DNA of 64,000 bases from Hyphomicrobiaceae bacterium (GCA_020442165.1 JAGRKV010000051.1:434001-498000); one strand, 5' to 3'. Numbered from the stretch's first letter, positions 1,776 to 17,860 are shown. Made by a program: numbers and translations. Notes: generated from the sequence alone by a model not told the origin.

Positions 1776-3560
1776 TCAAAGCGGCCACGCCATCAAGATG
1801 GCGGGAACGCCGACAGCAACGACGATGATTTCGAGCGGCAGGCCCAAACGCCAGTAATCGCCGAAGCTATAGCCACCGGGCCCCATGATGAGCGTGTTGT
1901 TCTTGTGGCCGATCGGGGTGAGGAAGGCGCACGACGCAGCGACTGCCACCGCCATCAGGAAGGGATCGGGATTAGAGCCGAGCTTTTGGGCAACCTCGAC
2001 GGCGATGGGGGCCGCAACCAATGTCGTTGCGGTGTTGTTGAGGACATCGGACAGCGTCATCGTCAAGGCCATGACGATGGTGAGAACGGCCCAGGCCGGC
2101 AGTCCCGTCGATATGTCGACGATGCCCTTTGCCAGAACGCCGGTGGCGCCAGACGATTCAAGCGCGTTGCCTATCGGGATCAGCGAGCCGATCAGAACGA
2201 CGACTGGCCACTCGATGGTGTCATAGAGGTTGCGCAGCGGAACGATGCCCAGCAGCACATAGATGAGAGCGACCAGGGCAAGCGCTATCGGCAGGTAGAG
2301 CAGACCAAATGTCGATAACGCAATGGCGGCGGCAAAAATTCCACCTGACAGCAACGCCCGCGAGCGGTCCGTCACCTCCAGCCCGCGTTCGCGTAGCGGG
2401 AGGACGCCTGTGGTCTCGACCAGCTGCGGAACGGTTTCCTTCGGAGCCAGCAGAAGCAGAACGTCGCCTGCCTGCAGGGATGTGCGGCGGACGCGGGTGC
2501 CCAGGCGCTTGCCCTGGCGGGAAATGCCGATCAGCCAGACGCCAAACCGGTCGAGGAGGCTGAGCGATGCACTGGAGCGCCCTTCGATCGCGGCGCCCGG
2601 TCTGACAACGGCCTCGACCAGTTCCAGCTCCGCTTCGACGAGTTCGGCGTGGTGGCGCTCCTTCTCGACGTAGGCAAGCTTGTTCGTTCCGGCGAATGCG
2701 TCGATCTTTTCGGCGGCTGTCTCCACCAGTAGGACGTCGCCGGCCTGGAGCTTCAGCCAGCCTGCTGCGTGGGGCAGGCGATGATGATTGCGGATCACAT
2801 TGAGCAGCGCGACCTCGGCCTCCTTTGCGGTGGCATCAACCTCCGCCAGGGGCTTGCCCGCGAATTCCGACTCCTGCGTGACTGTCAGCTCGGCGATGTA
2901 TTCGTCGAGTTCGTAGGGCGACGTGCCGGGGACTGTATCGTCCTTCGGCTGGGGGATCAGCCGCCATCCGATGAGCGCAATGAAGGCCACGCCGACAACA
3001 GCGCAGGCGAGGCCGACGGGTGCGTAGTCAAACATCTGGAATGGTGCGCCAAGCGTACGCTCGCGGAATGTGGAAACTATGATGTTGGGGGGCGTTCCAA
3101 TGAGCGTCACCAAACCGCCGAGGATGGTGGCGAACGACAGCGGCATGAGGGTGAGACCGGGCGACCGTTTGGCCTTGCGCGCGGCTTCGATGTCGACGGG
3201 CATCAGCAATGCGAGTGCGCCGACATTGTTCATGAATGACGATAGCACCGCTCCCAGTCCGGAAACGCGGAGGATATGACTGGAAATATTCGTTCCTGCG
3301 CCGAGCACGGCCCGCGCGATGAGGTCCACCGCGCCTGAACTTGCCAGGCCGTGGCTGACAACGAGCACCAGGGCGATAATCACGGTTGCTGGATGGCCGA
3401 AACCCTCGAAGGCCTTATCGCCGGGGACGGCGCCAAGAATTACCGCAGCGATGAGAGCGCCAAACGCGACGAGATCGTAGCGCCAACGCCCCCAAACCAG
3501 CAGGACGAGGACCGCAACCAGCAGTGTGAGAATCGTCAGCTGTTCAGGCGTGAACATCAT
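1776..3560 (-). CDS. SLC13-family permease with two RCK_C (TrkA-C) domains
   Basis: Inner-membrane transporter of the SLC13/divalent anion:sodium symporter type, about 594 residues. Hydrophobic helices fill residues 1-200 and 400-594. The middle (about 205-385) is soluble and holds two RCK_C/TrkA_C-like modules, seen as ESEFAGKPLAEVD...AGDVLLVE and EGRSSASLS...AGDVLLLLAP. The conserved GTPPNIIVS and SDVLNNTATTLV segments are the paired re-entrant motifs of this family. Substrate cannot be told: sulfate, dicarboxylate or another anion. ATGs at 3560 and 3557 are both possible; a TTG at 3596 would add twelve residues without hydrophobic character. It is monocistronic as far as visible. Confidence 0.85.
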   Translation of the reverse strand: MMFTPEQLTILTLLVAVLVLLVWGRWRYDLVAFGALIAAVILGAVPGDKAFEGFGHPATVIIALVLVVSHGLASSGAVDLIARAVLGAGTNISSHILRVSGLGAVLSSFMNNVGALALLMPVDIEAARKAKRSPGLTLMPLSFATILGGLVTLIGTPPNIIVSTFRERTLGAPFQMFDYAPVGLACAVVGVAFIALIGWRLIPQPKDDTVPGTSPYELDEYIAELTVTQESEFAGKPLAEVDATAKEAEVALLNVIRNHHRLPHAAGWLKLQAGDVLLVETAAEKIDAFAGTNKLAYVEKERHHAELVEAELELVEAVVRPGAAIEGRSSASLSLLDRFGVWLIGISRQGKRLGTRVRRTSLQAGDVLLLLAPKETVPQLVETTGVLPLRERGLEVTDRSRALLSGGIFAAAIALSTFGLLYLPIALALVALIYVLLGIVPLRNLYDTIEWPVVVLIGSLIPIGNALESSGATGVLAKGIVDISTGLPAWAVLTIVMALTMTLSDVLNNTATTLVAAPIAVEVAQKLGSNPDPFLMAVAVAASCAFLTPIGHKNNTLIMGPGGYSFGDYWRLGLPLEIIVVAVGVPAILMAWPL

Positions 3561-3774
3561 GACAGCTGTTGTGTGATGTTCAGCGCGGAAAGGCAACCCG
3601 GCTGATGGCTGTCACAAGAACTGGCTTGTGGCGCACTCTTCCTGGGGTTTAGCGTGCCGGGATGAGCGGGCTGCTGCTTCCTGCCTCAACCTGGCTGGCG
3701 GGCAGACATCGGTCCTGCCACATACCCGGTTTGCGCTCAATGGTGACGCTGCTCGCCAGCAGCGTTCTTTTCCC

Positions 3775-4017
3775 TCAGAGGAGACCTGCCGACTTGATCT
3801 CGTTCTGGCAGCGCTTGCCCAGTTTGTAGAACTTGGTGATGACGCAGTACTTCACCTTGGACACAGTCGGGTTGGTGCCAATGCACAGACGGCGAACGTC
3901 ACCTTCGCAAGCTGCGCGCAGGGCAGGTGTTACCTCTGGCGGCAGTTCGAACTTATCCTCGGCAATGGCTGGTGCGGCGGTGGCCAGGGCGAGCGCCATC
4001 ATGCTGTAGCGGATCAT
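3775..4017 (-). CDS. Small secreted Cys-rich protein
   Basis: An 80-residue protein with a signal peptide ending near PAIAED (about residue 19). The mature part carries four cysteines in a spacing like the Cys-rich FGFR/GLG1-type repeat: C-x3-DVRRLC, then a VKYC, then KLGKRCQNEI. Disulfide-bonded export to the periplasm is inferred. Small single-repeat proteins of this look occur in Hyphomicrobiales, but I know no function. It stands alone between the SLC13 gene and mmsA. Confidence 0.75.
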   Translation of the reverse strand: MIRYSMMALALATAAPAIAEDKFELPPEVTPALRAACEGDVRRLCIGTNPTVSKVKYCVITKFYKLGKRCQNEIKSAGLL

Positions 4018-4322
4018 GGGAACCCCCGTTCCGTTCTTCTCACTTTTCTCATGTTGCTTGGCGCAAAGACCATGCCGCGCGGGATGAATTAAGGACGCGG
4101 AGAGTCACTGCGACAGCTAACCGCACGAATCTTGGTTAATCCGCGTGTTGCGTTGCGACTTTCGTCTTGGCCCAGGCGTTTTGTCGGGTTGCAGGCCAGG
4201 AAGGGGCTGCACGCAAGGGTTGGATAGCCATCGTGCCAATGTGCCGGAACGAACCGGTGCGGGGAAAACTTTGAGGGTTGTCCTGCCAGCCAGTGGTCTT
4301 GCGCCGGGGGATGCCGCGCGGG
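4018..4322. other. Intergenic region, no feature recognised
   Basis: About 305 bp upstream of the small Cys-rich gene and downstream of mmsA. Short open frames here have no homology I recognise and no good ribosome site. It presumably holds the promoter of the leftward small gene; I see no clear hairpin terminator for mmsA. Confidence 0.4.
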
Positions 4323-5822
4323 TTATTTCATTGTCGGAATTGAAAACTCGGCGCCGGTGCGAATTCCAGACGGCCAGCGCGAGGTGACGGTTTTGGTCTT
4401 GGTGTAGAAGCGGATGGAGTCGGGACCATGCTGGTTGAGGTCGCCGAAACAGGAGCGCTTCCAGCCGCCAAACGTGTAGTAGGCGAGCGGCACAGGGATC
4501 GGCACGTTGACGCCAACCATGCCGACGTTGACCTTCGCGGCAAAATCGCGGGCGGCATCTCCGTCGCGTGTGAAGATGGCGACGCCGTTGCCGTATTCGT
4601 GTTCGTTTGGCAGACGCAGTGCGTCGTCGTAGTTTTGTGCGCGCACGACCGACAGGACGGGGCCGAAGATTTCTTCCTTGTAAATGCGCATGTCGGGCGT
4701 CACTTGATCGAACAGCGATCCGCCCAGATAGAAGCCGTTCTCGTAGCCCTGCATCCTGAAGCCGCGTCCGTCGACAACGAGCTTGGCGCCTTCGCTGACG
4801 CCGAGGTCGATGTAGCCCTTGACCTTTTCCAGATGCTGCCGCGTCACCAATGGGCCGAAGTCGGCATCGAGTGCCGTCGACGGTCCGACGCGGAGCGATT
4901 CGACGCGCGGCACCAGCTTCTGCATCAGCCTGTCGGCAGTATCTTCGCCAACAGGAACGGCGACGGAGATCGCCATGCAGCGCTCTCCCGCAGATCCGTA
5001 TCCTGCGCCGATCAGCGCATCAACAGCCAGATCGATGTCGGCATCGGGTAGGATAATCATGTGGTTCTTGGCGCCGCCGAAACATTGAACGCGCTTGCCG
5101 TGAGCGGCGCCGGTCGCATAGACGTATTGCGCGATATCCGACGAGCCGACGAAGCCGACAGCCATGATGTCGGGATCGGTGAGGATGGCATCGACGGCTT
5201 CCTTGTCGCCATTCACCACATTGAAAATTCCGGCAGGCAGACCAGCTTCGATGAACAATTCAGCGAGCATCAACGGCACCGTTGGCGCGCGTTCGGACGG
5301 CTTGAGAATAAAGGCGTTGCCACAGGCGATTGCTGGTGCCGCCTTCCACAGCGGGATCATGGCGGGGAAGTTGAACGGCGTGATGCCGGCAACGACGCCC
5401 AGCGGCTGGCGCATCGAATAGATGTCGATGCCAGGGCCGGCGCCCTCGGTGTATTCGCCTTTCATCAGGTGGGGAACACCGATCGCGAACTCGCACACTT
5501 CCAGCCCGCGCTGGATGTCGCCCTTGGCATCGGGGATGACCTTGCCGTGCTCGCGCGCCAACGCATCGGCAAGCTTGTCCATGTCGCGGTTGAGGAGGTC
5601 GACGAACTTCATCATGACGCGGGCGCGCCGCTGAGGATTGGTTGCGGCCCATTCGGGCTGCGCCGCCTTGGCATTCTCGACGGCCTGGCGGACATCGGCT
5701 GACGAGCCCAAGCCAACTCTTGCTGCGATCTCGCCGGTCATGGGCCAGAAGACGTCGCTGTAGCGGCCGGATGTGGCAGTGACAGGTTTACAGCCGATGA
5801 AATGGGTCAACTCGCGGGGCAT
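4323..5822 (-). CDS. mmsA: Methylmalonate-semialdehyde dehydrogenase (CoA-acylating)
   Basis: NAD-dependent aldehyde dehydrogenase of 499 residues that converts (methyl)malonate semialdehyde to propionyl-CoA or acetyl-CoA with loss of CO2, in valine, pyrimidine or inositol breakdown. The catalytic cysteine lies in GSAGERCMAIS (about residue 280), and PFNFPAMIPLW plus the IPVPLAYYTFGGWK end are diagnostic for the CoA-acylating MmsA subgroup. The ATG at 5822 is preceded by GAGGAG at 9 bp; an in-frame ATG five codons upstream lies inside that site. It is divergent from a LysR-type regulator about 100 bp away, which probably controls it. No mmsB or ivd neighbour is present. Confidence 0.93.
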   Translation of the reverse strand: MPRELTHFIGCKPVTATSGRYSDVFWPMTGEIAARVGLGSSADVRQAVENAKAAQPEWAATNPQRRARVMMKFVDLLNRDMDKLADALAREHGKVIPDAKGDIQRGLEVCEFAIGVPHLMKGEYTEGAGPGIDIYSMRQPLGVVAGITPFNFPAMIPLWKAAPAIACGNAFILKPSERAPTVPLMLAELFIEAGLPAGIFNVVNGDKEAVDAILTDPDIMAVGFVGSSDIAQYVYATGAAHGKRVQCFGGAKNHMIILPDADIDLAVDALIGAGYGSAGERCMAISVAVPVGEDTADRLMQKLVPRVESLRVGPSTALDADFGPLVTRQHLEKVKGYIDLGVSEGAKLVVDGRGFRMQGYENGFYLGGSLFDQVTPDMRIYKEEIFGPVLSVVRAQNYDDALRLPNEHEYGNGVAIFTRDGDAARDFAAKVNVGMVGVNVPIPVPLAYYTFGGWKRSCFGDLNQHGPDSIRFYTKTKTVTSRWPSGIRTGAEFSIPTMK

Positions 5823-5863
5823 GTTCTGTCTCCTCATGATCGGGGGCGGATTTCTTGTCTTCT

Positions 5864-6887: not shown

Positions 6888-7358
6888 TCAGCGGTCCTTG
6901 CCCGTACCGAAAACGCGATGCAGGGCTTCGGCGACACGAACGCTATCGACTTCGTCCTTGTGGATGACGTCGGCAGCACCAGCCTCCAGCAAAACGGACT
7001 TGCGTTTGCGCGTTGCCTGGCCGGAAACAACGACGACGGGGCCGTCGTAGCCTGCGCGCCGCAGGAATGGCAGCGTCTGGGCGGCATTGTCGCTGGGTTT
7101 CAGGACATCGTCGAGGAACACGATCTCAGGCGAACGCGCTATCACTTCGTCCAGGGCTCGTCCCAATGTCGCTGCCCGCCGGATCTCGACGTCGTAGCCC
7201 AGCATCAAGTGCAAGGTCGCCTTGAGCCGGTCAGCGTCGAAGGTTTCATCCTCGACGATGAGGATGTCCTTGAGGACAGGCAATCCCGCACGCGACTTTG
7301 TCACGCCGCTACGCTTGGCAAGATAATCGCCTCCGGATTTGTTGGCTGGGCCTGCCAT
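6888..7358 (-). CDS. Single-domain response regulator (receiver only)
   Basis: A 156-residue receiver protein. DILIVEDET supplies the acidic pair near residues 36-37, IVFLDDVLKP carries the likely phospho-acceptor Asp84, and VVVVSGQ plus a following Lys/Arg-rich segment complete the fold. About 27 N-terminal residues precede the domain. There is no DNA-binding or enzymatic output domain, so it acts through protein contact or as a phosphorelay intermediate. It lies 167 bp downstream of the histidine kinase gene on the same strand, at the end of the signalling series that starts at 11723, and is the natural partner of that kinase. Confidence 0.88.
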   Translation of the reverse strand: MAGPANKSGGDYLAKRSGVTKSRAGLPVLKDILIVEDETFDADRLKATLHLMLGYDVEIRRAATLGRALDEVIARSPEIVFLDDVLKPSDNAAQTLPFLRRAGYDGPVVVVSGQATRKRKSVLLEAGAADVIHKDEVDSVRVAEALHRVFGTGKDR

Positions 7359-7525
7359 GTTCGCTGCTTCGACCTCTCCCTGGTATGCCTAGAAGACTGC
7401 CAATAGCGATCTTTCCGTCCGCGATCAATCGCAACAGTTGGGTGGATCTAACACAGGGTTGCCGCGAAGGGTCGCAAGCTGGAGGGCACTTTTGCCAAAT
7501 TGTGGGTAATGAGGCTGAACGGACG

Positions 7526-8668
7526 CTAACTGAAGATCCGCTTTGGCCAGCTCAACTTGAAGGTCGTGCCGCGTGCCTTCGCCGGATCGGATTGGACTGC
7601 CATGGTGCCGCCGACAGTCTCTATGGTCCGGTTAACGAAGGCGAGGCCCATGCCAGTGCTGCCATCCTTCGGCGCGAGGGTACGGAACGGAAGCAGGATC
7701 GAAGCATGGTGCGCGGGGTCAATCCCGGGTCCGTCGTCTGCTATAGTTACAACTAGGTGCCTGGGCTGATCGGTAGCTGTGATAACGATGTGCCCGGTCT
7801 TGCGATCGTGGTGGACGATGGCATTTTGAACAAGGTTCCGCAAAACGAGATCGAAGGCAGCCTTTACGGTTGTCAGGTTTGGCCAATCGCCTTCGATGTC
7901 GATCGTGAAGCCACCAGGGACCGCGAGCGAGGCGACCACCGTTTCGACGATGGCACGGGTTTCAACAGATTCTGCGATTTCGGATTTGCGGCCGACACTG
8001 GCGTAATCCAGGAGCGAGGTCATCATCTCGTTCATCCGGCGCGTGCGCTTGCCGATTTCCTCCAGGCGCATGCTGGCGGTTGCCATGTCACCCGTTTCCA
8101 GGCTGGCGGCCAGATCCTCGCTGGCGTAGCGCAGGGCGCGGAGCGGCGATTTTAAATCGTGTGAGACGATAGCTGCGAAGTCTTCAAGATCGCGGTTGGC
8201 GCGGGCGAGTTCCGCATTCGCGCGCGACAGCTCGCGGGATTTTTCGGCCGCAATGGTCTCCGCAATCAAGCGTGCGCGCATCTGCTTGGACAAGTCGGCT
8301 TCGAGGTCCGAACGCGACGTGGAGCGGGCGATCAGCATCAGGTAGTGGCGACCTTCTGCATGCCACAGCACGGTGAGATTGAGCCGTGGTGCGCCTTCGA
8401 AGCTGGTGACGATGCGGATGGCTGGAAGGTCGATGACGCGACCGGGCGATTCCTTGAGTGCATGAAGATCGGTTTCGAGTCCGATCAGGGGCAGACAGTA
8501 ATCGAGCAACGGCTCACCAATATCGAATGAATCGACGAGATGGCCGTAGCGCGCCGTGATGCGCAACTCCTCATCGAACCAGATCAAACCATAGACGCCA
8601 CGCTCGGCAAGCATGCGGCCAGCGGCAACCAGGGGGCTTGGCGAGAATTGCGAGGCTTCATCCGGCAT
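7526..8668 (-). CDS. Soluble PAS-like sensor histidine kinase
   Basis: A 380-residue kinase. Residues 18-115 look like a PAS sensor (GVYGLIWFDEELRITARYG), residues 120-163 form a coiled linker, the HisKA phospho-site is His170 in AIVSHDLKSPLRAL, and the HATPase_c domain follows with LVLRNLVQNAIVHHD (N box), IADDGPGIDP (G1) and STGMGLAFV (G2). No transmembrane helix is visible, so it is cytosolic. The gene starts 15 bp after the Ras-like GTPase gene, in the same series as the OmpA-type protein, and is followed by a receiver-only protein. This suggests its signal comes from the GTPase/membrane module; that is inference. Confidence 0.9.
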   Translation of the reverse strand: MPDEASQFSPSPLVAAGRMLAERGVYGLIWFDEELRITARYGHLVDSFDIGEPLLDYCLPLIGLETDLHALKESPGRVIDLPAIRIVTSFEGAPRLNLTVLWHAEGRHYLMLIARSTSRSDLEADLSKQMRARLIAETIAAEKSRELSRANAELARANRDLEDFAAIVSHDLKSPLRALRYASEDLAASLETGDMATASMRLEEIGKRTRRMNEMMTSLLDYASVGRKSEIAESVETRAIVETVVASLAVPGGFTIDIEGDWPNLTTVKAAFDLVLRNLVQNAIVHHDRKTGHIVITATDQPRHLVVTIADDGPGIDPAHHASILLPFRTLAPKDGSTGMGLAFVNRTIETVGGTMAVQSDPAKARGTTFKLSWPKRIFS

Positions 8669-8683
8669 GGCTGCTCCGCTGCG

Positions 8684-9187
8684 TCACAGTCCGCGACGCA
8701 GCATGGTTGAGGCCGCTTCGTGAAATGCTTGTTTTACATTATCGCCAGTCAAAGCGCTGGTATGAAATACGCCGGATCTGCCGGAGGCGAGTTCTGCGGG
8801 AATGCTCGCGTCGTCACCGTCGAACAGATCCATCTTGTTGACGATGAGCGCCTCGTAGCGTCCCGGGAACTGGGAACGGAAGCCTTTGGAAAGCGAAAGC
8901 ATGGTGTCGAGTGTCTGGCGGCGTGTGACATCACCGATGATGAAGGCGGCGGATGCTTCCTTCATGTAGACGTGCTGGAACATGGCTTCGCCGAAATTGC
9001 CGTCCGTGTCCCAAATGATGAGCGACATGGCCTGATTGGTGGGTGTGGCGGGAATGTCGTAGCGGTAGATGTCGACGCCAAGCGTCGGCTTGTAGTCGGT
9101 CTCAAACCGGTCGAAAACCAGGCGCTTGGCGAGCGATGACTTGCCGACCCCGATCTCGCCCAGGAGCATGAGCTTGCGCGCGATCAT
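8684..9187 (-). CDS. Ras-superfamily small GTPase
   Basis: A 167-residue small GTPase. The motifs are in order: P-loop GEIGVGKSS (G1), YKPTLGVDIY with a switch-I Thr (G2), IIWDTDGNFGEAMF (G3), VNKMD (G4) and TSAL (G5). The usual switch-II glutamine of DTAGQ is replaced, since the sequence reads DTDGN, so intrinsic hydrolysis may be low and depend on a partner. Length and motif layout fit Rab/Ras-like proteins rather than Era/Obg types. The start overlaps the end of the OmpA-type gene by 4 bp (ATGA), indicating translational coupling. That neighbour has a segment resembling Roadblock/longin domains, which are known GTPase partners. Confidence 0.9.
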   Translation of the reverse strand: MIARKLMLLGEIGVGKSSLAKRLVFDRFETDYKPTLGVDIYRYDIPATPTNQAMSLIIWDTDGNFGEAMFQHVYMKEASAAFIIGDVTRRQTLDTMLSLSKGFRSQFPGRYEALIVNKMDLFDGDDASIPAELASGRSGVFHTSALTGDNVKQAFHEAASTMLRRGL

Positions 9188-11400
9188 GGGCTGCCTTCGC
9201 CCTTGAAGCCGATCTCGAACTCGACGCGACGATTGGCGCTGGTGGGACCGGTTGCAGGCGAGATGTCGATCATCGACAGCCGCCCCACGGCGATCAAGTT
9301 CGACGCCGGGATGCCGCGCTCTACAAGTTCGTCTCGCACTCGTTCGGCTCGGCGCTGCGACAGCGTGGAATTGCGGGTCGTGGTGCCGCGCTCGTCGGTG
9401 TAGCCAACGACGCGCAGAAATACGCCGGCCTTGCCGAGCAGTTTCGCCAGTTCGTCGAGCTGCGCGTTGGCCACGACGGTGTCGCGGAACTCGGCATTCT
9501 CGCCAAAGAATATCGCGTTGGTCTTCACGAAGCTCGACAGCTGCTCGATTGGCGTGGGGATGTGCGTGGGAGCCGGCGCGGGCTTGGGAATCGACCGGAG
9601 TGTGATCTCCGATTGCAGCAGTGCAAGCGTAATAAGCTGGGCGCGCCGCGCCTGATCGGCCAAGCTCTCGGCAGATGTCACATAAGCAGGCTGATCGGCG
9701 GGCGGCGGCAAAGCTGGAACTGTGGACGAGGAAGGTACTGCCGCGGCCAGATCGTTCTCCCGCTCGATTGCCGTGATGGCCGCATGCAGCGCATCGGCCT
9801 GGCCGTTAAGGCGCGCGGCAAGTTTTTCAGCGGCTGCACCTGCGGGAAGGTCTTCGCCGATCTCCTTGCCGGCATCACCAAGGCTCAGCGCAGCGGCGGC
9901 GAGCGCGGGCGCCAGCTTCTTGACGGTTGTGGTGATTTCAGCGCGACCGCCCGAGGCTGCAAGTGCCTTCAGTTTTTCCAGATATGCAGTGGCGGCGGAA
10001 AGGCCCTGGCGTGCGTTGTCGAGCGCACCCAGTGTTGAACGCCGCCAGCTTTCGCGATTGAACGTGCCCAATTCGCGACGCAGGGCGGCAATTTCCGGGG
10101 CAGCATCGCGGGCCCCCTGCGGCACGACCGATATGCGATTGTTGATTGCCGTTGCGGGCAGGGCCTCGGCGAGGCGGCCGAGAACAGCCTGAAGGGCCGC
10201 CGTGTTGGGCGCCAGACCGGTAATCGTCATGGCGCGGCCGCGCGGTGCGACATGCAGTGTCGTCGGATAGCCGCGAATCTCCGCGCTGTTCTCGATGACT
10301 TCCTTGGCGATCGCCTGGACACGGTTTGTTTCATAGTTAATCCATGTCGACCAGGCGAACCAAGCGATCGCTGGCAGCAGGATCACCGCTGCGAGTAATT
10401 TTGCCGGACTTATCCCGAGGGCCGGCGCATCAAGCTCCTCGTACTGTCTGGATATGCGCTCAGTGAGCCTGGGACCGAGTGACGAGAGGCTGGAGCGGGC
10501 AAGTTCGGGGTTCTCGCGTTCGCCGTGCAATCCGGAAACCGTCTTCAGGAATTCATCATCGATGACCTGCTCGATCGATGCTCCCGCGGTGCCGGCACAC
10601 TTGGCAGCGAGGAGATATCCCGGGGAGCCGCGCAGATAGACCTGCTTCTCGCCAAGGTCGATCTCGCGCAGTGCATTCTCGTTGGTTTGCAGCGCCTCGG
10701 TTGCAAACGAGTTGATTGCAGTCAGCACGCCACCCAGGACATGATCCTGGTTCCTGGTGCCGGGACTGTCGGGCCATCGCGCAACAAGCTCGCCGGTGCC
10801 TCGCCTTATCAGAAGCAGGTCTTCGACCTCGACGCGCTGGCTTTCCGCGAGCGCCAGTTCCGCCATCGAGCGCCCCGAAGTGAGGCTCTTGATGCGCAGC
10901 ATCAAGCGGTTGCTTTCCAAGCGCCGGTTGACCTGCTTGACGAGATCGCGCATGGCGCTCGCCACGTAGGCTTTCACCATCTGCCCGGTCATTGGATAGA
11001 GGGCTTCGACCAGCGCATCCTGGCTATTGACGATCTCGGTCTTGACCGTCTTGACGACAACGGGTGCGAGCGAGGTTTCCAGTGCTTCATGGCGCTCAGT
11101 TTCGGCCCGAACGATGGCACCATCCAGAACGTCGGCGACAGAGCGTGAAAAGCTGTCGGTTGTGCCGGCCCGCTCGAACACAGCATCGATGCGCCGTGCA
11201 AGCTCTGCTCTTGCACCTTCCTCATAGGCCTGGCGGTCCTGGATCGTCGCTTTCGTTTCCTGAAGCTGATTGCCAAGTGTGTTCAGCTGGCGCGCGAGTT
11301 CGGCCAGGCGCTCTGCCTCGCTGTCGAACAGCAGCTCCTTCAGCTTTGTCACGCTATGCGACATCGCACCTTCGGACATTCGTGGCGTCTCCCCGCTCAC
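9184..11400 (-). CDS. Membrane-anchored OmpA-family protein with cytosolic GTPase-partner-like region
   Basis: A 738-residue protein without a signal peptide. Residues 15-150 are helical and coiled-coil-like. Residues 190-275 (VEDLLLIRRGTGELVARWP, then a helix, then EKQVYLRGSPGYLLAAKCAG) resemble a Roadblock/longin-type domain. A single membrane helix lies at 332-350. Residues 360-427 look like a BON-type domain (MTITGLAPN). A helical stretch and Pro-rich linker follow, and residues 625-735 are an OmpA peptidoglycan-binding domain (VVGYTDERGTTTRNSTLSQRRAERV). The topology is therefore cytosol, one span, then periplasm. It sits between a coiled-coil gene (17 bp gap) and the small GTPase gene (4 bp overlap). 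The Roadblock/longin reading is by eye and needs structure prediction. Confidence 0.88.
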   Translation of the reverse strand: MSGETPRMSEGAMSHSVTKLKELLFDSEAERLAELARQLNTLGNQLQETKATIQDRQAYEEGARAELARRIDAVFERAGTTDSFSRSVADVLDGAIVRAETERHEALETSLAPVVVKTVKTEIVNSQDALVEALYPMTGQMVKAYVASAMRDLVKQVNRRLESNRLMLRIKSLTSGRSMAELALAESQRVEVEDLLLIRRGTGELVARWPDSPGTRNQDHVLGGVLTAINSFATEALQTNENALREIDLGEKQVYLRGSPGYLLAAKCAGTAGASIEQVIDDEFLKTVSGLHGERENPELARSSLSSLGPRLTERISRQYEELDAPALGISPAKLLAAVILLPAIAWFAWSTWINYETNRVQAIAKEVIENSAEIRGYPTTLHVAPRGRAMTITGLAPNTAALQAVLGRLAEALPATAINNRISVVPQGARDAAPEIAALRRELGTFNRESWRRSTLGALDNARQGLSAATAYLEKLKALAASGGRAEITTTVKKLAPALAAAALSLGDAGKEIGEDLPAGAAAEKLAARLNGQADALHAAITAIERENDLAAAVPSSSTVPALPPPADQPAYVTSAESLADQARRAQLITLALLQSEITLRSIPKPAPAPTHIPTPIEQLSSFVKTNAIFFGENAEFRDTVVANAQLDELAKLLGKAGVFLRVVGYTDERGTTTRNSTLSQRRAERVRDELVERGIPASNLIAVGRLSMIDISPATGPTSANRRVEFEIGFKGEGSP

Positions 11401-11417
11401 CTGTTTTCACGCCAGCA

Positions 11418-11723
11418 TTATTCGCGAGGGATCTTGCGGATGCGCTCGCCGAGATCCAGCACGCTCTTTGCGAGTTCGTCGAATGCGGCGCGGCGATCCG
11501 CTCCGACTTCGCCTGCCAGGGCTTCGAGCCGTGCATGCAGTGCCGCGAGGCGGCTGCCCACGGAGTGCTCGAGTTCGTTGAGGCGGCCTTCAAGGGCGGC
11601 AAGCCGGCGCTCTGTCTGGCGCACGACGTCGCCCACCAGCAGGTCGCGGATCTGTTCCATTTTCTCATCATTGCGATCGCCCTGCTGCGGCGTGCGGAGC
11701 TGATCGAGGGAGGTGGCGTTCAT
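11418..11723 (-). CDS. Small coiled-coil protein, first gene of the signalling series
   Basis: A 101-residue soluble protein, mostly heptad-like helix from residue 20 to 95 (LLVGDVVRQTERRLAALEGR, then repeated Leu/Ala/Glu positions). I recognise no family. Its gene precedes the OmpA-type gene by 17 bp on the same strand, so it is probably made with it; the OmpA-type protein also has N-terminal coiled-coil stretches, and direct binding would be a simple hypothesis. The ATG at 11723 is used. Confidence 0.68.
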   Translation of the reverse strand: MNATSLDQLRTPQQGDRNDEKMEQIRDLLVGDVVRQTERRLAALEGRLNELEHSVGSRLAALHARLEALAGEVGADRRAAFDELAKSVLDLGERIRKIPRE

Positions 11724-12285
11724 TTGCCGAATGCCTTCTAATAAACTCTGACGGATGCGTGACGCGCGCGGAACCGCAGCGTCAGCATGACCACGTCGGA
11801 TCTATGGAACCCTTGCGCTTGCAAGTCATATCCGCGTGAAATTCAATTCAAGCCCTGATCTTCTTTTCGGTACGACTTCTTCGGAATTAAGGCGCTAGGT
11901 GCTGTCGAATGGCCTGCTGAATTTACTCGGTTCGCGCGCCGCCACGGCATGAGGCGGGCAGGCATGTCGCTTGCTCTTGCTCCTCTGCGGTTCGCGTGCA
12001 GCTTCTTATGTTGGTCATTCAACCCGATAAATGTGTTCCGTCCAAGGGTTATGCGACAGCATATCTTACCCCCTTTCATCGTCCCACACCATTGGCGGAA
12101 ATAGTAAAAAATCGCCATAGATCGTCAAACAGGGTTTTAAATGAAAGCGTCTTATGGACCGTGTTCGGGGCCGCGTTTAACTGCATTGGACGAGTTGCTG
12201 GCTACGCCCCGACGATCGGGTGAGCGTTTGTCGGCAGCACTGCAATGTTGAAGTGGCTGCAGGTCTTGGGGGAAAAACGACCAGA
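11724..12285. other. Divergent intergenic region of the signalling locus
   Basis: About 560 bp between the leftward coiled-coil gene and the rightward CHASE2 gene. It presumably carries both promoters. The stretch 12095-12170 is AT-rich and includes an inverted repeat TGGCG (12093-12097) and CGCCA (12113-12117), too short to name. Short open frames here show no family and no ribosome site. If the CHASE2 protein starts at the GTG at 12220, the gap is 66 bp shorter. Confidence 0.4.
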
Positions 12286-13512
12286 ATGACAGCTGGTGTG
12301 CGAAGGCCGGGCTTATTTCGGGCAGGGGGAGAAACGGCAGGCCGGCGCGGTTTGGCGCTGGCGCTATTGTTTGCTGCAATGGCGGCTGCCTTTCTGCCGC
12401 GACTGCCTGCGGACTGGTCGACCCGCATTCTGGCCCCTGGCTGGATGCCGCACCAGATTGTGCAGCTCCTGGAATATTCAAACGATGTTCAGGTGGCGGT
12501 TCTGGCTGACCGGCTGGCAGGGCCGCATCCGCGTGTCGCGATCGTTCTGATAACGGATGAGACACTTGCCGAGCTTCCGTATATTTCGCCGATCGACCGA
12601 GGACTTCTCGCCCGGGTCGTGAAAGCCGTCGATGGGCTTGGTGCCCGTGCCATAGGTCTCGACATCCTCTTCGATCAGGCAACCGAGCCCGACAAGGATG
12701 CTGCCTTGATCGAGCGGTTCAGGCTTTCGCGCGCGGCACTGGTGCTCGGCGGCGCCGACGAACGCACGCCGCTGGCGCCAAGGCGGCGGTCCTGGCAGAC
12801 CTCGTTCATGCAACGAGCGGGGTTGCCATTTGGGTATCTCAACCTGCGTTATGACGTCAGGGAAGCGGCACTGACGCATGTCGTGCGCAGCCGGGCCAGC
12901 GCCGCACCGAACTCGGCATTCAAGAAAAGTTTTGCGGAGCTGCTGGCGGAGCGCGCGGGCATCCGTTCGGTCCCTGAGAGCAGGCGCATTGCCTGGTTGC
13001 GGCCACCGCTTTCCGGCGGCGAGACGTTCACGACCGTTGATGCCGATGCCGTACTTGCGGCCGATCGCGAACCGGATGGTATTCTCGCGCGGGCGCTAGA
13101 GGCGCAACTCGACGGGCGGATCGTTCTGATTGGTGGTGATATCGATGGCCGCGACCGGCATCCCACGCCGCTGTCGCTGGTCGATGGTCAAGATACACTG
13201 GGTATTGCAATCCATGCCCAGATTCTCGCCGGGCTCATGGATGGCCGCTCCCTCAGCGATCTGACGCCGGCGGGCGTTTCATTTCTTGCTGGCGTTGCAA
13301 CCCTTCTGGGTGCGCTGATCGGCTGGTTCGCGGCCCGGCGGCGCCTCGTTTTCACTCTCGCCATCGGTGTTGGTACGCTGATCGTCATGGGCGTGAGTGC
13401 CATCGTGTTGTGGCAATTCCGTTCCATAGTTCCGGTGGCGCTGCTGATTGCATCGCTCGTTGGCGCTGCGGTCGTTATGCGGCTTGCGCGCTCCTGGCTT
13501 GCGCAGGGTTGA
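12286..13512 (+). CDS. CHASE2-domain membrane protein without output domain
   Basis: About 408 residues. An N-terminal hydrophobic helix (LALALLFAAMAAAFLPRL) is followed by a periplasmic CHASE2 sensory domain, with the hallmark segments VAIVLITDETLAELP...PIDRGLLARVV and GARAIGLDILFDQ. Near the C-terminus are three membrane helices (from GVSFLAGVATLLGALIGW to VALLIASLVGAAVVM), and the chain ends there. CHASE2 proteins usually continue into a cyclase, kinase or GGDEF domain; none is present. The ATG at 12286 has a G-rich site upstream; a GTG at 12220 is also possible. It is followed by a FecR-like exported protein and lies opposite the GTPase/OmpA/kinase series. Confidence 0.87.
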   Translation: MTAGVRRPGLFRAGGETAGRRGLALALLFAAMAAAFLPRLPADWSTRILAPGWMPHQIVQLLEYSNDVQVAVLADRLAGPHPRVAIVLITDETLAELPYISPIDRGLLARVVKAVDGLGARAIGLDILFDQATEPDKDAALIERFRLSRAALVLGGADERTPLAPRRRSWQTSFMQRAGLPFGYLNLRYDVREAALTHVVRSRASAAPNSAFKKSFAELLAERAGIRSVPESRRIAWLRPPLSGGETFTTVDADAVLAADREPDGILARALEAQLDGRIVLIGGDIDGRDRHPTPLSLVDGQDTLGIAIHAQILAGLMDGRSLSDLTPAGVSFLAGVATLLGALIGWFAARRRLVFTLAIGVGTLIVMGVSAIVLWQFRSIVPVALLIASLVGAAVVMRLARSWLAQG

Positions 13513-13572
13513 AATGACTGGGATGCGCTGGTGAAGTGTCCACGGTACGTGATTTGGAAAGAGGGGTTCTTG

Positions 13573-14376
13573 ATGCGCAAGAAGGTTGGCGGACCGGTTC
13601 TGATTGCAGCAACGCTTGGAATGTTTGGGATACTTACCGGCGCAGGCTCTGCTGTCGCGGACGTCATCGTTATCGGGGCAAGCGGCGCATCCGTTAAACC
13701 GGGTCAGGTCCTGACGAGCGACGCCACTCTTAGTCTGCCGGGCGGGGCGCGCGTTCGTGTCATGCTCGCTTCTGGGCGAACGCAGGAGCTCAAGGGGCCG
13801 GGCCAGATCAAGATCGGCGACCTCGGTAAGGGCGAGGCTGTCAACGAAAGCCTGTGGAACGACGTCAAGCGTCTTGTCGCGACGCAGACAAGCGCACGGG
13901 AAAGCGAATTGGGTGCCGTCCGTTCGGTTGCGCCAACGAAAAGCAGCCGATCGTTCTCAGCGTCTCGGGGTGGTGAGGCTCTGGGTGAACTGGGTGCTGC
14001 CGGGACGGCATTTTCCTGGCGGCGTGTCTCGGTCGACCGCGAGGGTGATGTCTGCGTCGAGAAAAGCGCTCCCATCGAATTGGTGCGTAATTCGCCGGGG
14101 CGGCCGCTGGCTGTCACGATCGTCAATATCCAAGCCAAGAAGCGCGGCATGGCGGAGTTCTCTGCGGGATCTGCAACCACATCGTGGCCCGCATCTGTCG
14201 GCAGTGACGTTGGGCTTTACGCCGTCGTTCTGCCTGACGGTGGGCGGCACGAGGTGCGCCTGCGTCCGATCAAGCCGTTGCCTGCGGCCGACGATACGCT
14301 GCGCGTGCTGCATGGTCAGCGCTGCCTGGCGCAGGTGGAAGCCTGGCTCAGGGGGCAAATGACGGCGAGCCGCTGA
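13573..14376 (+). CDS. Exported FecR-like protein
   Basis: About 267 residues with a signal peptide ending near GSAVADV. Residues 30-80 (ASVKPGQVLTSDATLSLPGG, then ARVRVMLASGRTQELKGPG) resemble the FecR-type beta domain found in periplasmic signalling proteins. The rest, including a C-terminal segment with a pair of cysteines (DVCVEK and GQRCLAQ), is not recognised. The ATG at 13573 has GAGGGG 6 bp upstream. It follows the CHASE2 gene by 60 bp and converges on the ferredoxin oxidoreductase gene with a 7 bp gap. CHASE2 plus FecR-type pairs recur in alphaproteobacteria and cyanobacteria; a role in sensing envelope state is inferred. Confidence 0.72.
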   Translation: MRKKVGGPVLIAATLGMFGILTGAGSAVADVIVIGASGASVKPGQVLTSDATLSLPGGARVRVMLASGRTQELKGPGQIKIGDLGKGEAVNESLWNDVKRLVATQTSARESELGAVRSVAPTKSSRSFSASRGGEALGELGAAGTAFSWRRVSVDREGDVCVEKSAPIELVRNSPGRPLAVTIVNIQAKKRGMAEFSAGSATTSWPASVGSDVGLYAVVLPDGGRHEVRLRPIKPLPAADDTLRVLHGQRCLAQVEAWLRGQMTASR

Positions 14377-14383
14377 CGGTCGG

Positions 14384-17300
14384 CTATTCCGCGATGCCGC
14401 GGCGCTCATCGTGCGCGGCGGCTTCGTCAAATGCCTTCCGCAATAAGTGCCGCTCTTCAAGAGCACTTGCCATTGCGCGCTGCTTGACTGCGCCAAAGCC
14501 CCGTATGGCGAGGGGCCAGCGGGCGAGCGCCACTGCTGCAGTGTGGCTTGCCGCGGACAGGTTTGCGACGATGATGTCGAGGTCCTGCTCGTAGTCGGCA
14601 ATGAGCTGGCGCTCAGCGCGCCGTTCGGTGCTGTAGCCAAAAATATCGAGGCGTGTGCCGCGCAAGCGCTTGGCTCTCGCGAGCAAGCGCAGCGCCGGCA
14701 TGATCCATGGCCCGAAACGGCGTTTGAGCGGGCGGCCGGTGTCCGGGTCCTTTGGAGAGAGCAGGGGCGGGGCTAGGTGAATCCGCATTGAGGTTACGCC
14801 GCTGAACTCAGTGGAGATCATACGGGCGAAGCGGCCATCGGTGTAGAGGCGCGCGACCTCGTATTCGTCCTTGATGGCCAGCAGCCGGTGATAGGCAATG
14901 GCGACGGCTTCGGTGAGGGCTTTACTCTCGTGGCGGCTGTGTACGTCGCGCTTGAGAATTGCAGCAATGCGGTGCTCATATCGCGCGGCGAGATCTGCGT
15001 CCTGGTATTTAGCAAGATCGGTTGCGCGAATGGCAATGAGCTGTTCGATCGTGTCGCTGGTTCGTGTTTGGGCCTTTGCTGGCAAGGTTTCAGCCAACCG
15101 TTGCAGAGCCTCCCGATCATGGGCCGCAAGTCGGCCGATACGGAATGCCTGCGTGTTGGCGGCGACATCGACTCCGTTGATAGCAATCGCCGTTTCAATA
15201 TTGTCTGAGGGAATAGGCAGGTAGCCACGCTGATAGGCGAAGCCCACGAGCATCATATTGGCGTAGATGGCGTCGCCCAGCATCGTCTCGGCGATGCGAT
15301 GGGCATCGAACAGCGTGGGCGGTTGTGTGCCTGAGCGTCGCGTGATCGCGCCACGCAGTTTATCGACGGGTGTGACGAGGTCAGGCGTGCGCGTGAATTC
15401 GCCGAGTGTCGCTGCATGGTCAGAAACGATCAGCGCGGTATGTCCCGGCGACACCATCTCAAGGATCTTATTTGACGCCGTGACGACAAGATCGCCGCCC
15501 AGCACGACATCGGCGCCTTCGACACCGATGCGAATGGCGTGGATGTCGGCGGGCTTTGCCGCAATGCGCATGTGGCAGGCGACGGGCCCGCCCTTCTGCG
15601 CAATGCCTGTTACATCGATGGCGCCAAAGCCGAGGCCCGCGAGGTGCGCGGCCTGTCCCAAAACCGCGGTGATTGTGACGACGCCAGTGCCACCGATGCC
15701 TGTTGCAAGAATGGCAAGGGGTTTTTCAAGTGGCGGGCGGATTGGTTCGGGCAAGTGGCTTGCCGTTGCATTCAATTCGGCTGGTGTGCGGCGGCGCGGT
15801 GTTGCGCCTTCGAGCGTGACGAAGCTGGGGCACAATCCGTCGATGCAACTCATGTCCTTGTTGCAGGCGGACTGGTCTATGGTGCGTTTGCGTCCGAACT
15901 CTGTCTCCAGTGGTGCCAGGGCGACGCAATTGGAGGTGACGCCGCAATCGCCGCAACCTTCGCAGACCAACGGGTTGATGGCGATGCGGATCGCGGGATC
16001 AGGTGCTGTTCCGCGCCGCCGCCTGCGGCGCAGCTCGGCGGCGCAGGTCTGATCGTAGATGAGGACGGTGACGCCATCGATTGCGGCCAGGTCCTTCTGT
16101 ACGGCATCGAATTCGCTACGCGGGTGAATGCTGACGCCTTGGGGCAGGGCGCCGCCCATGTCGCGATGCGGCTGGTCGCTGACGACTGCAACCTTTGAGG
16201 CGCCTTCGGCGACGAGCTGGCGTGCCATCTGCGCGAGTGTCATGCCGCCATCGAGATGCTGGCCGCCGGTCATGGCGACGGCGTCATTGAACAGCAGCTT
16301 GTAGGTCATCGTCACGCCTGAAGCGATTGCCGCGCGCATGGCGAGGCTGCCGGAATGCACGTATGTCCCGTCGCCGATGTTCTGGTAGACGTGGCGGCGT
16401 TTCGAGAATGGCGCCTCGCCGATCCAGTTGGCGCCCTCCGCGCCCATCTGCGTGAAGCCTTCGGTCGCTCGGTCCATCCACTGCACCATGTAGTGGCAGC
16501 CGATGCCGGCGTAGGCGCGCTCGCCCTCCGGTACGCGCGTCGATGTGTTGTGCGGGCAGCCGGCACAGAAATATGCGCGGCGCTGGACGGTTTCGGGGGA
16601 AGTGGGGCGGCGGTCCTGGGCTGTTTGCAGTTCGGATGTGCGCCGGGCCAGTGCGGTGTCGCCGGTAGCGGCGGCAAGCCGGTTGCCAATGACGATTGCG
16701 ATCTGAAGAGGATCGAGCGCGCCTGAGGCGGGAAAGAGTGCGTGGCCCTGCTCGTCGCGCTTGCCGATGATGCGCGGGCGATGATCCAGATCGTAGAGGA
16801 TCTCCTTCGCCTGTGTCTCGATCAGAGCTCGCTTTTCTTCGATGACGATGAGCAGGTCGAGGCCGTTGGCGAACGTCTTGAGGCCCTCGGGTTCAAGCGG
16901 CCAGACCAGCGCAATGTTGCGGAGTTTCAAACCAAGTGCAGCGGCCCGGTTATCGACCAGTCCCAGCATGTCGAGGGCCTGGCGGGTGTCGGAATAGCTT
17001 TTGCCTGAGGCGATGACGCCAATGCGTGGATTTGTGCCGCCATCGAGAATGGTGTGGTCCAGTTTGTTGGCGCGCACGAAGGCATGAATCGCATCGCGCT
17101 TGTGCTCGTGCCAGCGCTGCTCCTTGGCGAGCGGGGGATCCGCCAGACGGATGTTGAGGCCGCCAGGCGGCATGGCGTAGTCGGCGGGTGTCGGCAGGGT
17201 GATCTTCAATCGTCCCGGATCGGCATCGACGACCGCGGTGCTTTCGACATTATCCTTGACGCATTTGATGCCAACCCATGTTCCGGCGAACCGCGACATG

Positions 17301-17860
17301 GCAAAGCCGTAAAGGCCGAGGTCGATGAGGTCCTGTACGCCGGTCGGGTTGAGGATCGGTATCATGGCATCGACAAAGGCGAACTCTGACTGGTGCGCGG
17401 ATGTCGAGCTTTCGCAGATGTGATCGTCGCCCATCAGTGCGACGACGCCGCCGTTGGGCGATGTGCCGGCATGGTTGGCGTGGCGGAGTGCATCGCCCGA
17501 TCGGTCGACGCCGGGGCCCTTGCCGTACCAGACGCCAAAGACGCCATCGAAGCGGCCTTCGTCGCGCAACTCCGCCTGCTGCGTGCCCCACAAGGCGGTC
17601 GCGGCGAGGTCCTCGTTGATCGCTGGATGAAAGACGATGTCAGCTGCGGGAACACGTTCGCCCGCGAGTGCAAAAGCAGTTTCCAAGGTGGCAATGGGCG
17701 AGCCGCGATAGCCCGTGACATAACCTGCCGTATTAAGGCCAGCGGCGCGGTCACGCGCCTTCTGCATCAGCACCAGACGGACGATTGCCTGCATGCCGTT
17801 GAGGAGCTGATGCGGTTTTGAAAGATCGAACTTTTCGGTGAGCCGAGGCGTCGGCTGCAT
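14384..17860 (-). CDS. Indolepyruvate ferredoxin oxidoreductase, fused alpha/beta
   Basis: A 1158-residue fused 2-oxoacid:ferredoxin oxidoreductase of the proteobacterial IorAB type. It oxidatively decarboxylates aryl pyruvates such as indolepyruvate to acyl-CoA. The order is: N-terminal pyruvate-binding region, a Cys cluster CAGCPHNTS (about 430), the thiamine-diphosphate binding region around IGDGTYVHSG (about 490), a ferredoxin-like Cys region CEGCGDCGVTSNC...CNKDMSCIDGLCPSF (635-675), then the gamma/beta domain from ILATGIGGTGVVTI (about 715). Full length for the family. It is monocistronic; no ferredoxin or aromatic aminotransferase gene lies beside it. Confidence 0.94.
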   Translation of the reverse strand: MQPTPRLTEKFDLSKPHQLLNGMQAIVRLVLMQKARDRAAGLNTAGYVTGYRGSPIATLETAFALAGERVPAADIVFHPAINEDLAATALWGTQQAELRDEGRFDGVFGVWYGKGPGVDRSGDALRHANHAGTSPNGGVVALMGDDHICESSTSAHQSEFAFVDAMIPILNPTGVQDLIDLGLYGFAMSRFAGTWVGIKCVKDNVESTAVVDADPGRLKITLPTPADYAMPPGGLNIRLADPPLAKEQRWHEHKRDAIHAFVRANKLDHTILDGGTNPRIGVIASGKSYSDTRQALDMLGLVDNRAAALGLKLRNIALVWPLEPEGLKTFANGLDLLIVIEEKRALIETQAKEILYDLDHRPRIIGKRDEQGHALFPASGALDPLQIAIVIGNRLAAATGDTALARRTSELQTAQDRRPTSPETVQRRAYFCAGCPHNTSTRVPEGERAYAGIGCHYMVQWMDRATEGFTQMGAEGANWIGEAPFSKRRHVYQNIGDGTYVHSGSLAMRAAIASGVTMTYKLLFNDAVAMTGGQHLDGGMTLAQMARQLVAEGASKVAVVSDQPHRDMGGALPQGVSIHPRSEFDAVQKDLAAIDGVTVLIYDQTCAAELRRRRRRGTAPDPAIRIAINPLVCEGCGDCGVTSNCVALAPLETEFGRKRTIDQSACNKDMSCIDGLCPSFVTLEGATPRRRTPAELNATASHLPEPIRPPLEKPLAILATGIGGTGVVTITAVLGQAAHLAGLGFGAIDVTGIAQKGGPVACHMRIAAKPADIHAIRIGVEGADVVLGGDLVVTASNKILEMVSPGHTALIVSDHAATLGEFTRTPDLVTPVDKLRGAITRRSGTQPPTLFDAHRIAETMLGDAIYANMMLVGFAYQRGYLPIPSDNIETAIAINGVDVAANTQAFRIGRLAAHDREALQRLAETLPAKAQTRTSDTIEQLIAIRATDLAKYQDADLAARYEHRIAAILKRDVHSRHESKALTEAVAIAYHRLLAIKDEYEVARLYTDGRFARMISTEFSGVTSMRIHLAPPLLSPKDPDTGRPLKRRFGPWIMPALRLLARAKRLRGTRLDIFGYSTERRAERQLIADYEQDLDIIVANLSAASHTAAVALARWPLAIRGFGAVKQRAMASALEERHLLRKAFDEAAAHDERRGIAE

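Follow-up and report, generated by a model that had tools for sequence, protein, structure and literature searches.

Gene content and conservation of the locus

Seven open reading frames were confirmed in the window (the whole 64,000-nucleotide stretch of DNA analysed here) at the coordinates and on the strands given by the initial annotation. Five of these form a leftward core running from 11723 to 6888, which encodes, in this order, a coiled-coil protein, an OmpA-type protein, a small GTPase, a histidine kinase and a receiver, and the intergenic spacings calculated from the coordinates are 17, -4, 15 and 167 bp, in agreement with those annotated. The first gene of the operon (11418..11723, minus strand) encodes CC, a small cytosolic coiled-coil protein of 101 residues. 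The two remaining genes point rightward and are accessory to the core; one encodes a CHASE2 membrane protein (12220..13512, plus strand; PF05226, E-value 2.1e-22), for which the annotated lack of an output domain holds, and the other a probable exported protein (13573..14376, plus strand) with a signal-peptide-like N-terminus as read from the sequence. Searches of the whole 64,000 nucleotides did not find any RNA-family or tRNA features.

The initial annotation knew of no described system with this gene set, but the four-gene core is known as the neighbourhood of the Group 1 Rup GTPases, described by Wuichet & Sogaard-Andersen in 2014 (PMC4316618). In that analysis, the Group 1 Rup proteins were the bacterial GTPases nearest to the eukaryotic Rab/Ras/Rho/Ran group, were not coupled to MglB, and had a neighbour whose domain was left as a 'domain of unknown function' (PMC4316618). 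Judged by its gene neighbourhood and by a GTPase signature in which the G3 Gln is missing and the Asp is kept, the present locus appears to match Group 1 Rup, and the two have in common a GTPase without the catalytic Gln, a coiled-coil gene, a gene for an unknown domain joined to a transmembrane segment and an OmpA domain, and a signalling output gene. We found no experimental work on the partner, regulator, function or biochemistry of any Rup in the open-licence literature.

Judged by the nearest named loci, which come from metagenome-assembled genomes of Hyphomicrobiaceae and Hyphomicrobium, the genome containing the window belongs to the Hyphomicrobiaceae. The five-gene core is conserved far beyond close relatives. 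The order of the coiled-coil, OmpA-type, GTPase and kinase genes is kept in 20 out of 20 loci of the same family, and the receiver is present in 17 of these. A survey of alphaproteobacteria yielded 53 Rup loci, with counts limited to those having enough flank; the CC gene lies upstream of the longin-OmpA gene in 38/38 such loci, and a kinase with the same N-terminal domain is present in 41/46. The longin-OmpA gene (named for the fold described below) is found in 37/38 family loci, the exception being a split gene in locus L088. A broader sample of the phylum comprised 23 distant loci, and in 21 of these the gene adjoins that of the GTPase. Independent searches of 149 relatives for the GTPase and for the longin domain found both in 54 genomes and neither in 93; in the two discordant genomes (G001 and G019), the contig breaks off within the OmpA-type gene. 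These counts rule out, for the core, a chance co-occurrence confined to close relatives. The linked system that had been proposed from the sequence thus stands as far as the peptidoglycan-contact protein, the GTPase and the two-component output are concerned, which form one conserved unit, whereas the inclusion of the CHASE2 and 'FecR-like' genes is contradicted by their distribution.

The Rup core is flanked in the window by genes for an aldehyde dehydrogenase (4323-5837) and an indolepyruvate-oxidoreductase-like protein (14384-17860). The same two metabolic genes directly bracket the five-gene core, without CHASE2, in several Hyphomicrobium genomes (L039-L041), and the position of Rup therefore looks old and vertically inherited.

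The GTPase Rup and the longin-OmpA protein

Rup (8684..9187, minus strand) is a Rab/Ras-like single-domain small GTPase, whose gene overlaps that of the longin-OmpA protein by 4 bp. It matches the Ras family (PF00071) with an E-value of 1.2e-22 and, at 167 residues, falls within the 150-240 residue size range of Group 1 Rup proteins. The annotated G1-G5 motifs are borne out by key residues that are invariant in 70 family homologues. The G3 motif reads WDTDGN, with Asn at the position of the catalytic Gln61; this position is never Gln in 93 bacterial homologues, all of which have the G3 Asp (Asp60). Without the catalytic Gln, Rup is expected to be a slow GTPase that relies on regulators. The closest sequences in the PDB are Rab proteins, both eukaryotic and Asgard. 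Membership of the MglA family was considered and rejected, since Asp60 is invariant in Rup whereas MglA has no conserved G3 Asp (PMC4316618), and since a search for Robl_LC7 (MglB) proteins, positive in three named control genomes, found no match in the window genome and 59 relatives. A diverged copy of Rup with an in-frame TGA is seen elsewhere (G077:C34:16553-17044), where the longin gene is kept, and may represent a decaying system.

The longin-OmpA protein (9184..11364, minus strand) comprises about 726 residues when read from the ATG at 11364. The reading frame could open at a GTG at 11400, but the ATG is the most likely start, because homologues align from about there. With this shift of the start, its description as a one-span OmpA-type protein is upheld. 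The single transmembrane segment (residues 335-353; 10342..10398, minus strand) is recognized as a hydrophobic stretch that is kept in the alignment. It is followed by a periplasmic BON-like domain (10102..10344, minus strand), for which Pfam BON is matched in 8/17 homologues (best E-value 2.7e-4), with the window sequence itself below detection, and by a C-terminal OmpA-type domain (9238..9468, minus strand; PF00691, E-value 2.4e-11), which by family membership would bind peptidoglycan. We also considered whether the CC protein is homologous to the N-terminal end of the longin-OmpA protein and rejected this, as the hhalign probability of 71% over 29 coiled-coil columns is not convincing.

The initial annotation missed a predicted longin/roadblock domain in the cytosolic part of this protein, which would supply the mechanistic link of the locus. 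The cytosolic part was aligned with 59 homologues (a set of 60 sequences) and modelled using AlphaFold2, giving in a single prediction a mean pLDDT of 87.0, with the domain mostly at 77-96 per ten-residue block. In the model, the N-terminal part is long and helical, and after it comes the domain in question (residues 167-312; 10429..10866, minus strand), whose elements occur in the order a-bb-a-bbb-a-a, with the bb-a-bbb-a elements at E179-187, E193-197, H201-225, E234-236, E240-246, E250-257 and H262-280. Foldseek searches initiated with the cytosolic domain against the PDB found p14/MP1 of Ragulator, Mon1-Ccz1-Ypt7, TRAPP and MglB among the best matches, with a probability of about 1.0 and modest E-values of about 1e-3. 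Using VIA-align, the domain could be superimposed on a TRAPP subunit (chain 2j3t_D) with a Z-score of 12.9 over 124 residues at 2.9 Å, on a Lokiarchaeal longin (8yqg) with a Z-score of 12.8, on the human MON1A/CCZ1 complex with a Z-score of 12.4 and on MglB from the MglA-MglB complex (6h5b) with a Z-score of 10.6. All 50 matches listed by VIA-align appear to be of the longin/roadblock type, and many of these structures were solved with a small GTPase. The N-terminal domain of the kinase encoded at this locus served as a control for specificity: it, too, has a bb-a-bbb arrangement, but it matches PAS proteins and not longins.

Sequence profiles built from 50-60 homologues, for the whole cytosolic region or the domain alone, found no credible relatives in Pfam or the PDB, so the assignment is made at the level of the fold and not of a sequence family. 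On the strength of the model, the cytosolic domain is predicted with high confidence to adopt the longin/roadblock fold. A shared fold does not by itself show function; linkage to a Rab-type GTPase and the lack of Robl_LC7 in the 60 genomes searched add weight to a functional reading. In the open-licence literature we found no report of a longin or roadblock domain linked to an OmpA-type protein. One Rup locus contains two longin-OmpA genes (L136:225-2882 and 3435-5108, plus strand), whose products could form a heterodimeric platform like that of Mon1-Ccz1.

The kinase, the receiver and the exchange of outputs

The histidine kinase (7526..8668, minus strand) consists of an N-terminal PAS domain, a signalling helix with Q129 and R131, a HisKA domain (E-value 1.1e-7) with His170, and a HATPase_c domain (E-value 1.7e-20), consistent with its annotation as a cytosolic histidine kinase. 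The PAS fold is predicted by AlphaFold2 with a pLDDT of 90.6 and retrieves PAS proteins in Foldseek. The last gene of the core (6888..7358, minus strand) encodes a single-domain response regulator (PF00072, E-value 5.7e-10) with a Lys at position 134. Its annotation as a receiver-only protein is retained, while the phospho-acceptor, given there as Asp84, may be either residue of a DD pair, D83 or D84. The receiver adjoins the kinase in most loci of the family.

Elsewhere in the phylum, the genes behind Rup encode HisKA and HisKA_3 kinases, hybrid kinase-receivers, class III cyclases, GGDEF-EAL proteins and a LuxR-type regulator. Typical outputs of Group 1 Rup have been reported to be c-di-GMP enzymes and kinases (PMC4316618); the class III cyclases, hybrid kinases and the LuxR factor are additions to these. 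By hhalign (probability 93%, E-value 2.7e-7), the cyclases have an N-terminal region homologous to the PAS domain of the kinase, and this domain is therefore the likely docking site for Rup; corresponding alignments of the PAS domain with the N-terminal domains of the GGDEF-EAL and hybrid-kinase proteins were not significant in hhalign. Class III adenylate/guanylate cyclases lie directly behind Rup in six loci (L129, L130, L134, L139, L140 and L141), five of which were called by a Pfam match and L140 by its near-identical N-terminal region. A further variant is a protein of 223 residues (L142:7758-8429, minus strand) in which the Rup-linked N-terminal domain is fused to a LuxR-type HTH, possibly a GTPase-controlled one-component transcription factor.

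A Gln in the N-terminal region of the output proteins was reported earlier to be invariant and was proposed to act in trans in GTP catalysis (PMC4316618). Its candidate counterpart in the window kinase is Q129, and of the 48 output proteins in the alignment only 29 have Gln at this position, so that a GAP role for the kinase is not supported and the idea of catalysis in trans is weakened. Two residues further on, R131 (8276-8278, minus strand) is Arg in 45 of the same 48 proteins.

A predicted envelope-anchored relay and its alternatives

What is new in this locus is the longin/roadblock assignment; the gene neighbourhood of Group 1 Rup was already known, as an uncharacterised one. The locus further departs from the published account of Group 1 Rup in its wider set of outputs, in the receiver as a regular fifth member in the family, and in a supposedly invariant Gln that is not invariant. 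The MglA-MglB systems of Myxococcus and Thermus resemble it in combining a small GTPase with a roadblock-type partner and in their links to receivers, but here the GTPase is Rab-like with the G3 Asp kept, and the partner domain is fused to a transmembrane segment, BON and OmpA rather than being a stand-alone Robl_LC7 protein. The actinobacterial conservons, or AGPS (CvnA-D; PMC13343842), are likewise operons with a kinase, a roadblock protein and a small GTPase; unlike the present locus, they have their own MglA-family GTPase and a membrane kinase as sensor, and no peptidoglycan-binding longin protein. TRAPP, Mon1-Ccz1 and Ragulator share the predicted regulator fold and a Rab-type GTPase partner, whereas the likeness is at the level of the fold only, without detectable sequence similarity, and the protein studied here is anchored to the cell wall and not to endomembranes. 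The orientation in which GTPases bind to roadblock/longin dimers is conserved from bacteria to eukaryotes, as seen in MglA-MglB and TRAPP-Rab (PMC10933270); longin folds also occur in roles that do not involve GTPases, for example in SNAREs (PMC10933270).

We hypothesize, with a probability of roughly 0.55, that the locus encodes a G-protein relay of the Group 1 Rup type that acts across the envelope, in which a longin dimer sets the state of Rup and Rup in turn gates the kinase. The OmpA-type protein would span the inner membrane and hold peptidoglycan through its C-terminal OmpA domain, its BON-like domain and coiled coil would extend across the periplasm, and the longin/roadblock domain would form the end of the cytosolic part nearest to the membrane. 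A cue from the envelope or peptidoglycan, we infer, may pass through the OmpA, BON and transmembrane parts to the longin domain, which, probably as a dimer assisted by the CC protein, would bind Rup and set its nucleotide state as a GEF or a GAP, by analogy with MglB, TRAPP and Mon1-Ccz1. Rup-GTP would then dock on the soluble kinase, at its PAS domain and signalling helix, and alter the activity of the kinase, from which the signal would leave via the single-domain receiver. Elsewhere in the phylum, the same front end would drive other outputs, some of them perhaps through a related N-terminal domain.

The longin/roadblock assignment suggests that platforms of this fold are paired with Rab-type switches outside archaea, eukaryotes and the MglA branch as well. 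The topology is unusual, as the platform forms part of a transmembrane protein that binds the wall, by which the G protein could read the state of the envelope. At slightly below even odds, the system may be a wall-tethered proteobacterial counterpart of a eukaryotic Rab regulator, that is, a transmembrane receptor whose longin domain switches a Rab-like GTPase by peptidoglycan or envelope state and which is coupled via a common docking domain to kinases, cyclic-nucleotide enzymes and transcription factors. In that case, the logic of a receptor, a G protein and swappable effectors would exist in bacteria with a G protein of the Rab type. The longin/roadblock assignment makes the function of Rup testable by simple biochemistry, with one domain and one GTPase.

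The part of this relay that could most readily be read otherwise is the activity of the longin-like domain, which might serve as a scaffold or effector that recruits Rup to the membrane, with no GEF or GAP activity, nucleotide exchange being spontaneous or due to another protein. Scaffolding roles have been described for longin/roadblock proteins (PMC10933270) and p14/MP1 of Ragulator, which is among the top matches in Foldseek, acts chiefly as a scaffold, but the GEFs TRAPP and Mon1-Ccz1 and MglB rank at least as high, and the 60 genomes searched contain no other recognisable roadblock-type regulator, so we regard this alternative as serious though doubtful. The direction of the signal could also be reversed, in an inside-out polarity or anchoring module where the kinase and receiver respond to a cytosolic cue by controlling Rup, and Rup-GTP recruits or activates the longin-OmpA protein at an envelope site. 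Such an arrangement would suit a soluble kinase with a PAS domain of its own and recalls the regulation of MglA by receivers in Myxococcus, as in the case of RomR (PMC4316618); we nevertheless consider it distinctly unlikely, since a cyclase, GGDEF-EAL protein or LuxR-type regulator takes the place behind Rup elsewhere, and Rup acting upstream of a variable output fits this variability better than the reverse. A merely coincidental fold, in a domain functionally unrelated to the GTPase, is very improbable: simple alpha/beta folds do recur and a sequence-level match is missing, yet the structure matches listed belong to one superfamily while the control domain goes to PAS, and the longin gene is co-inherited with the small GTPase.

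The relay outlined above takes its input from the longin-OmpA protein, whereas the initial annotation placed sensing in part on CHASE2 and the exported protein. These two genes adjoin the core throughout the genus to which the window belongs (four genomes), which speaks for such a role; we find it hardly credible, as the pair is absent from 35 of the 38 family Rup loci with flank and also exists in a genome without Rup (G028). CHASE2 is common in the family regardless of Rup, and in one other Rup locus that has it (G034) there is no exported-protein gene and an unrelated CoA-transferase gene lies between. The pair, oriented oppositely to the core, separates it from the conserved indolepyruvate-oxidoreductase-like (IORB) gene, and the simplest reading is that of a late insertion. 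A seven-gene system was therefore rejected, the two genes being by distribution a genus-level add-on. The name 'FecR-like' is likewise not sustained, because neither the exported protein nor two of its homologues match FecR or any other Pfam family; its reading frame, given earlier as 281 residues, probably starts at the ATG at 13573. Output-less CHASE2 proteins also form independent units, either with a homologue of the exported protein in a genome that has no Rup (L146:6548-8529, plus strand) or as a divergent pair (L150:5742-8536).
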